In this document: piece by piece, positions 48,970-51,900 of the stretch
Layout: each line of letters begins with the position of its first letter
Position numbering within the stretch: the first letter of the stretch is position 1
Position numbers and translations under genes: made by a program
Origin: Scatophagus argus
Taxonomy: Eukaryota > Chordata > Actinopteri > Scatophagidae
Assembly: GCF_020382885.2 (NCBI RefSeq)
Contig: NC_058495.1
Coordinates: 6,937,627 to 7,001,626 of the forward strand
Length of the DNA stretch: 64,000 nt
Reading direction: 5' to 3'
Notes under the pieces: generated by a model
The model's input: the letters and a program-made list of their open reading frames with translations, nothing else
Databases searched by the model: none
What the model was told of the DNA's origin: nothing

Positions 48970-51900
48970 ATGGGAGCAGGCAAGAGCAAGCCCAAGGAGC
49001 CGGGCCAGCGCTCCATGAGCCTGGACGGGACCATCGGCACAGGCTCAGACAGCGGACACTTCCACCACCTGGGCCCCGCCCAGCAAACCTTAACCCCCAA
49101 CAGGAGCCCTGCCGTTGGGACAGGCAGGAGGGGGCATCAAGGGCAGCACCAGCACGCCCCAACAAACACTCCTGAGCTGGCTCTCTTTGGAGGGGTGGAC
49201 CACACTGGCACCATCACCTCACCTCAGAGGGGACCTCTGGCAGGTAAGCAGCACTTTCTGAGATTCCTAATGGGTGGAAAATAGAGCAGAATATAACAGG
49301 AAATAGTGAAGTTAAATTAAAGTTCCACTGAATAACATTTTATTCTTGAGTTTTATGTTTGAGATAGTGACCCAATTCTAATTCTGTCAACAAAAAATGT
49401 AGGGTTAAATGTTAGGGAAAATTTTAGCAGAGATTAAACTGCCATGTCTGTATATGATATGGTACAGTCACAGCTGGTTAGATTAGCTTAGTTTAGTATA
49501 AACACTGGGAATTGGTGGAAACAGCTAACCTGACTTTGTATAAAAGTAACTCCTCTTTTCAGATCAAACTAACATTAATACTTTATGCATCCTCTGTTTT
49601 TGGTTTACGGGGGATTATGTGCCGTACTATTTCTTGACCACGACTTCCATGAGTCGGTGCTGGTTGCCTGGCAACCTCACAGCGACAAGACTCAAAGGAG
49701 TCACTGTGCCTTCCTGAGAAATAGTCCTGCACACTGTATAAGTATATACCTGGTATAAATAGTTTTACAGATGCTGGTAGGTGTATTTTGTTTCCTCCAT
49801 TTTTAATCTTTGTGCGACGCTAAACATTTCCTGGCTCCAGCTTCATATTGATAGATGGATATTGACAGATATGAGAGTGATATCGGTATCGTCTAACAGC
49901 AAGAAATCAACTGAATGTTTTTTCCAAAAGTATCAAACTGTTGTTTTAAATGTTAATTATACATTAGAGCCAATGTAATCTTGCTTGTACAAGGACTGGA
50001 AAATGTATAATAGTCCACAATGTCAAGATGCACATTTTTTGTGTGTACAAAGCAGTACATCGAAGCAGATGCATGCAGTGGAAACAGATCTGATGAGAAC
50101 TTAGTGTGGTCCAGATAGTCCACAGACTTGCTTTTAGTTTGAAAAAAAAAAACAAAAACCCACAGATTCACAGTGAGTCATAGTCACACAGAAAAATAAT
50201 TTTTTTCTCAACAGAAAAACTGTTTCTTTTTCCCTTCATCAGACTTAAAACCTCCTCTTTGACTTTGCAGCCAGTCATGTCACACCTTCCAGATTTTTCT
50301 TGCCATTAAGCTGTAATGTGTCTAGACTGGCCAGATGGTTAGGTTAATGTTGCTCCATCCCGAGAGCAGAGGGCTGCTGGTGTATGAGGAACGGCTCTGC
50401 TGGCCGCCTCCTCCTGTGCATCTAATGAGCCAATCAATGATTGGCTGGAGAGTTCCCAGGTTTAGAGCACAGGTTCATTAAAAGGAAAGCTACACAGAAA
50501 ATAGAAATCCATTGATATGATGACTCTGTCCTTCACGGACGATCGGGCACAAGCAGTTTGGAAGTCAATATTTCTCATTAGGTCTTGGTAAATTCTTTCA
50601 CACAGATGTGGAGCAGACGCAAAATAACTTAAGATTTATAGCTTTACGGCAGATAGAGCAAATTATTATCAAGGGCTGGACCTGTTTTATTGAAGTCAGA
50701 TTATGGAAGTGAATGTGAATGGGCCTTAAGGGGAAGCACCATTGTCTTTAATTACATTGTTCCCTAAGTGTATGTGTGTGTGTGTGTGTTTGTGTTTCTG
50801 GCAGGAGGCGTCACTACATTTGTGGCGCTGTATGACTATGAGTCACGGACAGCATCTGATCTGACCTTTAGGAAAGGCGACAGGCTGCAGATTGTCAACA
50901 ACACGTAAGAATCGACAGTCATCTGCCTCTTCACAGAAAGATGCACATGTGATTGTGCATGTGCACCAATCTGTATGTGAATGAACACAAACCGAGCTGT
51001 TAGCTGTGGACCGATGCAGACAGCAGAGTCTGATCCTCTCCATCTGTTGACTAAAACGGAGCAGAATGGCACTTAACAAATGCATTCTCTTCCTCTTGGG
51101 CAACTGTCATCATCTTTAAGACACTTTATAGAGAGTTTGCAAGACCTACACTGATAATGTAAAAATGTCTTGCTGTTGGATGTCAGCATGTGTTGGAGTG
51201 TATTTCAGTGTAATTTCGATAGAAAGGACAGAATGATTTCAATAGGAGGAGTAATCTCAAGTGGGTGTTTAAAATCAGTTTTGTTTTTGTTTTTCCATTT
51301 CTTATGAGGCTTTTCCACAACTTCTGCCATAAGTCTGGTCTGCTGTTATTTATCTATAGTCTGGCACTACATAGTAGGGGTGAAAAGTAGAATTAAATCA
51401 TGCTTAATTAATATTGCTCAATGAAAAGTTCCAGTATATACATTGCAGTTACATGACTACATTGCATTAGTATTTCTTCATAAGCATATGAAAATACTGA
51501 ATCAAAAGTAGTGAGAGTGTATCTGTGAGTCCAAAAATCCCACAATATATCTGATCATTCATAGATAGTAAGTGGGAGATAGTTTCTCACTCCTCTACTG
51601 CAGAATTAATAAAACTATTTCAAACTGCACTGGAATGGAAAGTCGAGCTGCACACTGTACACCGCAGCTCGTATCAACCCCACTGTGTAGTCCCACGGCA
51701 TATTCAGCTCCTTTGCTATCTGTCTGTGCTGTGCTGCTTGCCTTGCTGTGTCTCCTCGCTGTGTTTTGATGTGTCTGCTGTGTCTGTTATCTCTCCCTCT
51801 CTCTCTTTCTTTCTCATGCTTCATGGTTTCTCCTAGGAAAAAGTACAGCTTCAGGTCAGTAATACTTAATGCAATAAAAATCTCATGCAACCTTTTGTTC

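Follow-up and report, generated by a model that had tools for sequence, protein, structure and literature searches.

N1-Src, a form of the Src kinase, carries a short insert that is located in the n-Src loop of the SH3 domain and weakens binding to the SH2–kinase linker (PMC4509517), and the excerpts used here of PMC4509517 and PMC5318895 concur on the weaker linker binding and add an altered ligand preference. Inserts of this kind have long been known, in fish too: a six-residue N1 insert from Xiphophorus brain is attributed to Raulf et al. 1989 in the available text of PMC5577857, and PMC12626424 counts the zebrafish src microexon among 21 selected on grounds such as inclusion in neural tissue and control by srrm3/4, and reports that neurite growth is altered when it is deleted. 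For microexons likely to be under Srrm4 control, PMC12626420 gives a UC tract followed by UGC as the canonical layout. The point worth keeping from the present analysis is that the insert is paralogue-specific, fish being able to carry two distinct N1 versions, one per src copy.

The 18-nt exon and its gene

The window, by which we mean the whole 64,000-nt stretch of DNA analysed, lies on contig C3 of a 570.7-Mb genome and holds a src gene of 12 coding exons including the cassette (48970–58461, plus strand, gene model). The gene is here called copy B; "Src-like" is its name in many database records. The features, in window positions, are as follows.

16722–21516: cytochrome P450 exons, CYP24A1-like by eye; Pfam p450 matches at 16722–16955 and 21208–21513
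26896–33749: NFATC2-like gene by eye; Rel-homology dimerisation match at 30083–30388
37378–37554, plus strand: UPF0239 protein exon, upstream of src and on the same strand as src
48970–49243, plus strand: first coding exon of src copy B (SH4/unique region); gene model, open frame, donor gtaag
50805–50904, plus strand: exon 3, SH3 N-terminal half, 5' neighbour of the microexon; 100 nt, gcag/..CAACAC/gtaag
51790–51836, plus strand: UC-rich tract, then UGC (−20 to −18), then acceptor ctag; CTCTCT/TCTCTC words start at −47 to −36
51837–51854, plus strand: N1-type microexon, 18 nt, KKYSFR, n-Src loop position of SH3; ctag/GAAAAAGTACAGCTTCAG/gtcagt
52865–52963, plus strand: exon 4, SH3 C-terminal half, 3' neighbour of the microexon; 99 nt, acag/AGAAGG..GGAAGA/gtacat
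53232–58461, plus strand: exons 5–12 (SH2, linker, kinase domain, tail); frame open to TAG at 58461
53232–53335, 55460–55609, 55708–55863 and 56486–56665, plus strand: exons 5–8, gene model
56843–56919, 57017–57170, 57387–57518 and 58253–58461, plus strand: exons 9–12, gene model

The UPF0239 gene we take to be of the MANBAL type, presumably the gene that adjoins SRC in human.

When joined, the copy-B exons give a protein of 550 amino acids with the 18-nt exon and of 544 without it, in each case with no internal stop and a single terminal one. Reading passes through the split flanking codons (AC, the 18 nt, then A, giving T-KKYSFR-E) and the frame is kept. The exon lies in the SH3 intron of src, and in the SH3 domain KKYSFR follows NNT and precedes EGDWW. 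The product of exon 3 aligns with the Src SH3 of PDB chains, and a PDB sequence search with the fish protein placed a six-residue insert, relative to the solved Src chains, at the cassette site. The 12-exon model and its two translations bear out the preliminary description, which had proposed an in-frame 18-nt cassette in the SH3 intron adding KKYSFR at the N1 position; its coordinates (donor after 50904, cassette 51837–51854, next acceptor before 52865) are all correct, and the UGC that it put 18–20 nt before the acceptor is the TGC at 51817–51819. In its length (15–18 nt in N1-Src microexons), its kept frame and its consensus splice sites the exon agrees with the N1-Src type. The peptide departs from the charge pattern of RKVDVR in having neither Asp nor Glu while retaining the basic ends; the acidic residue was not taken as defining N1, zebrafish RKLNPR being without it too.

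An AG and a GT set 18 nt apart mean little alone because the 1960-nt intron offers 50 stop-free, frame-keeping AG..GT stretches of 3–30 nt, and a chance in-frame stretch that is no exon at all is the simplest rival explanation. Scored with simple, unfitted splice matrices of consensus values, the exon nevertheless ranks at the top of these 50 candidates (10.0, runner-up 7.5), with acceptor (5.5) and donor (4.5) scores inside those spanned by the nine constitutive exons. First-order Markov introns of matched make-up contained a candidate scoring at least as high in 3 of 300 cases and an 18-nt candidate encoding [R/K]KxxxR in 0 of 300. The same peptide, moreover, stands in the same place in at least 14 other clusters of fish proteins, and this conservation largely refutes the chance explanation, which we regard as extremely improbable. 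The exon is thus understood to be genuine: a conserved microexon of the N1 type, belonging to the second of two teleost src genes. Its counterpart in the other src gene of this genome (copy A) scores 7.0, top of the 36 candidates in its own intron. A scan for a sister microexon in the SH3 introns of five further Src-family members in this genome, which by eye look fyn- and yes-like, returned 273 candidates, the best of which (6.0) falls below both src exons.

Two src paralogues and their inserts

Three protein searches (queries: window protein residues 80–170, P0021 and P0025), represented by the best 120 of 1173, 885 and 991 matches, were pooled to 148 distinct proteins; their rows are clusters at 90% identity, many of them computed gene models, and count sequence types, not RNA observations. 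The FastTree tree of 140 sequences and 538 columns comprises 138 of the 148 proteins, two Fyn-like proteins and eight outside 485–630 amino acids having been left out, together with the window protein and copy A of this genome, and is rooted on two sharks. The insert columns had been removed beforehand, hence the insert cannot drive the grouping. All teleosts stand together (support 0.805), with a copy A clade of 68 rows (0.741) and a copy B clade of 59 rows including four from elopomorphs (0.963; 0.984 for the 55 clupeocephalan rows), and the window gene falls in copy B. The two are paralogues because single species have rows in both clades, as is the case in Oryzias latipes, Takifugu flavidus, Mugil cephalus, Oncorhynchus nerka, Coregonus clupeaformis, Conger conger and Anguilla rostrata. 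The "fish src" of the preliminary description therefore needs narrowing: an N1 microexon is conserved in teleosts, but the gene in question is one of two. Among the matches listed, the tree places every otophysan row (22 of 22), that of zebrafish among them, in copy A. This suggests, as far as protein records can tell, that otophysans lost copy B, and it agrees with PMC12626424, which in the part available describes zebrafish src as lacking a close paralogue.

Copy A of the same genome lies on the minus strand of contig C8 (L039, G000:C8:3368500-3378400) and encodes a protein of 543 amino acids with N1, identical to the window protein at 474 of 550 aligned positions; its 18-nt N1 exon, GAGGAAGGTGAATTGCAG, encodes RKVNCR. 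The donor of copy-A exon 11, CAG/gcaagc, makes a GC-AG intron, the equivalent copy-B intron starting with gtaaga. Beside copy A on this contig (G000:C8) we noted by eye a KCNG-like potassium-channel gene (L048) and a LIM-domain MICAL-like exon (L050). No window ORF other than those of the src exons gave a tblastn match in the roughly 20 kb that flank copy A on either side (L047–L050); every match fell within L039, in src and in repeat-like stretches. Because the flanks gave no shared ORF, the case for duplication is built on the tree and on the species with both copies, not on synteny. Its origin in the teleost whole-genome duplication is our inference. A published account of the src duplication may well exist already: the reference list of PMC8662651 includes a work on gene families kept since the teleost duplications (Brunet et al. 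2017). SrcA and SrcB, in the available text of PMC8662651, are subfamilies of the mammalian type, not the teleost copies.

The 18-nt product is conserved, as the cross-teleost comparison proposed in the preliminary description now shows. KKYSFR and its context, TKKYSFREGDWW, recur letter for letter in at least 14 other clusters (14 of the 148 proteins, among the matches listed), the carriers among these matches including Oryzias, Takifugu, Gasterosteus, Lates, Mugil, Trematomus and Iconisemion. In Lates calcarifer (P0005/P0044) and Salmo salar (P0013/P0101) the form with the insert and the form without it show 0 differences in their trimmed core columns, which, in database records as distinct from reads, is the pattern that a cassette exon predicts. 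The inserts among the matches listed are distributed as follows.

Copy A, 68 rows including this genome: RKVNCR 27, RKLNPR 15, RKLNCR 7, RKLNSR 5; RKMNCR, RKMNYR and IKVNCR 1 each; none 7; longer odd sequences 4
Elopomorph copy B, 4 rows: RKLNSR 2, RKVNSR 1, none 1
Clupeocephalan copy B, 55 rows including the window: KKYSFR 15, RKYSFR 7 (salmonids), RKYNFR 1 (Coilia); no insert 27; other or unscored 5, including VCCR in Denticeps, whose row is sister of the Coilia row in the tree
Non-teleosts: RKVDVR in tetrapods, RPDIR in three frogs, RLDGR in two sharks

The 27 insert-less clupeocephalan rows are read here as the c-Src isoform, missed exons or loss being possible as well. As separate observations, the Src-like records of sharks (P0142, P0143) with their RLDGR extend the five-residue insert, in records, beyond frogs. 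The close relatives Polypterus and Erpetoichthys have the unlike inserts RRLNCR and KTDTR in P0129/P0148, one of which may be a wrong gene model; RRLNCR is already without an acidic residue. Three salmonid copy-A proteins (P0118, P0119, P0125) show 12–13 residues at the N1 site, such as RPSVKLFRSCLHR, either through gene-model error or through use of another upstream acceptor.

With these inserts in hand, the likeness to human RKVDVR that had been pointed out earlier is retained in Lys 2, the basic position 1 and Arg 6, yet the comparison was incomplete: copy A has RKVNCR, and because the window gene is copy B, setting KKYSFR directly against RKVDVR mixes paralogue with fish–tetrapod divergence. 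The change from VDV to YSF, which had been expected to alter the chemistry of the loop, likewise separates into two components. Tyr and Phe are a copy-B change, and Ser replaces the Asn of copy A (of the 83 teleost six-residue inserts among the matches listed, 61 have Asn at position 4 and 22 have Ser). The loss of the acidic residue, by contrast, is not peculiar to the KKYSFR exon, since Asp or Glu occurs in 0 of these 83 inserts (window and copy A of this genome counted, among the matches listed). The role proposed for the Asp of RKVDVR in the excerpts of PMC5318895 thus cannot apply to the fish inserts found, in either copy.

The series RK[L/V]NSR, RKYNFR, RKYSFR, KKYSFR suggests that the copy-B insert changed step by step, an order that leans on one Coilia row and on moderate tree support, with RKLNSR found in copy A too. 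Neutral drift of the YSF core is a serious contender, to which we assign somewhat less than even weight: loop length and basic residues would suffice, and KKYSFR and RKVNCR would be equivalent. Such an equivalence finds support in the like behaviour of Xenopus five-residue and mammalian six-residue inserts in COS7 cells, as reported in the part available of PMC5577857, and in the presence of Lys 2 and Arg 6 in 83 of 83 teleost six-residue inserts among the matches listed, whatever their centre. Drift fits less well with the constraint on the core within clupeocephalan copy B, where, among the matches listed, [R/K]KYSFR makes up 22 of 23 six-residue inserts from salmonids to pufferfish and RKYNFR the one other, or with the divergent Iconisemion protein P0114, which retains KKYSFR unaltered within a changed SH3 domain.

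Upstream sequence and regulation

The preliminary description had seen "microexon logic" in the pyrimidine tract and the UGC upstream of the exon. Both elements are present, and the layout of Srrm3/4-regulated neural microexons given in the available text of PMC12626420 is matched by copy B, with a UC tract and then UGC at −20 to −18. The likeness does not discriminate at src, however: under a fixed rule (TGC between −45 and −6, with a UC word in the preceding 40 nt) the copy-B exon passes, the copy-A exon fails and 7 of 20 ordinary acceptors pass (5/10 in copy B, 2/10 in copy A). The UC tract has 13 TCTC/CTCT counts in 100 nt upstream, the top of 22 acceptors scored. UGC, in comparison with first-order Markov resampling, is not enriched in the 140 nt upstream of the exon (8, mean 8.9) or in the 100 nt (4, mean 4.4); the UGC-richest 140-nt windows of the intron do adjoin the exon upstream (8, median 2) and are accounted for by base composition. 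The Rbfox motif GCAUG was sought within 300 nt on either side and is absent there. Two SRRM_C domain matches in the genome exceed the family cut-off, the number to be expected if srrm3 and srrm4 are both present. Dependence of copy B on these factors is suggested by analogy with the published zebrafish work on neural, Srrm3/4-dependent inclusion, zebrafish being a species with copy A only among the rows listed.

The regulation might differ between the copies. If the neural switch was lost after duplication, the copy-B exon would not be neuron-restricted and its inclusion would be broad, or low and constant. The undistinctive regulatory motifs are compatible with this, as are splice sites of fair strength (acceptor 5.5 and donor 4.5, within the constitutive range) and the derivation of the fish regulation data from zebrafish, with copy A only among the rows listed. 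Set against it are the copy-B records that exist both with and without the insert, the record P0003, named Neuronal Src (a database name only), and published reports, in the parts available of PMC5577857 and PMC12626424, that vertebrates from fish to mammals use the src insert in neural tissue. On balance we hold loss of the neural switch to be quite unlikely. The explanation that very probably accounts for the evidence as a whole is an N1 cassette of src copy B whose inclusion lengthens the n-Src loop, most likely in neurons and under control of PTBP1 and Srrm3/4. According to this explanation, PTBP1 bound to the UC tract would hold the exon off outside neurons, and Srrm3/Srrm4 would switch it on in neurons.

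Proposed role and place among N1-Src forms

Skipping of the copy-B exon would leave an ordinary c-Src, and its inclusion would add KKYSFR to the n-Src loop of SH3. By analogy with mammalian N1-Src, the SH3 domain with the lengthened loop should bind the SH2–kinase linker more weakly, with higher basal activity and altered ligand choice as the likely consequences; on the same analogy it is plausible that the KKYSFR centre in particular changes the choice of ligand. An AlphaFold prediction from an alignment of 37 Src proteins (first row P0004) had a mean pLDDT of 39.1 and a pTM of 0.27, scores so low that neither a structural reading nor a fold search was built on it. No PDB chain with the full N1 insert occurred in the best 60 of 308 matches to the fish N1 SH3 query or in the best 60 of 329 to the human one; the rows listed, 7pvy and 7pvz ("Isoform 2") among them, all align over a stretch six residues below that of the query.

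A more far-reaching reading, tentative and on the whole rather improbable to us, is that N1 diverged in function after the teleost src duplication, the copy-B insert being rebuilt stepwise and the neurons of many fishes becoming able to run two unlike N1-Src kinases. The steps would be RKLNSR/RKVNSR in elopomorphs, RKYNFR in Coilia, RKYSFR in salmonids and KKYSFR in spiny-rayed fishes. The aromatic [R/K]-K-Y-S-F-R would bring Tyr and Ser, surrounded by basic residues, into the n-Src loop, and the two kinases would differ in ligand choice, one of them being open to phospho-switching. In motif, [R/K]-K-Y-S-F-R resembles PKA/PKC sites. Were this reading true, zebrafish, apparently without copy B, would be blind to the second N1-Src.

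The open-licence papers searched contain 0 matches to KKYSFR or RKYSFR, and a paper on the two teleost N1 inserts was not identified among those listed. Two paralogous kinases in one genome with two inserts constitute a natural experiment on the sequence of the n-Src loop, and they hint that the zebrafish microexon work covers one of two fish src genes.

Compared with the known systems, the copy-B exon shares with vertebrate N1-Src (RKVDVR, as given in PMC5318895) the same src intron, a size of 18 nt as reckoned from the six-residue length, and the same SH3 loop. It differs in its centre, YSF in place of VDV, in having no acidic residue, and in belonging to a teleost duplicate of src. The Xiphophorus N1-Src, which could be of copy A or of copy B, resembles it as a six-residue insert from a teleost brain. 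Closest is the N1 exon of teleost copy A (RKLNPR in zebrafish, RKVNCR in this genome), which is paralogous, occupies the same place in the same phase and likewise has a position 4 that is not acidic. The two part company in the centre of the insert, V/L/M-N-x in copy A versus Y-S-F in copy B, and, within this genome, in the weaker donor of copy A (gtttgt, 1.7 compared to 4.5 in copy B) and in its nearest UGC, which lies no closer than −93.
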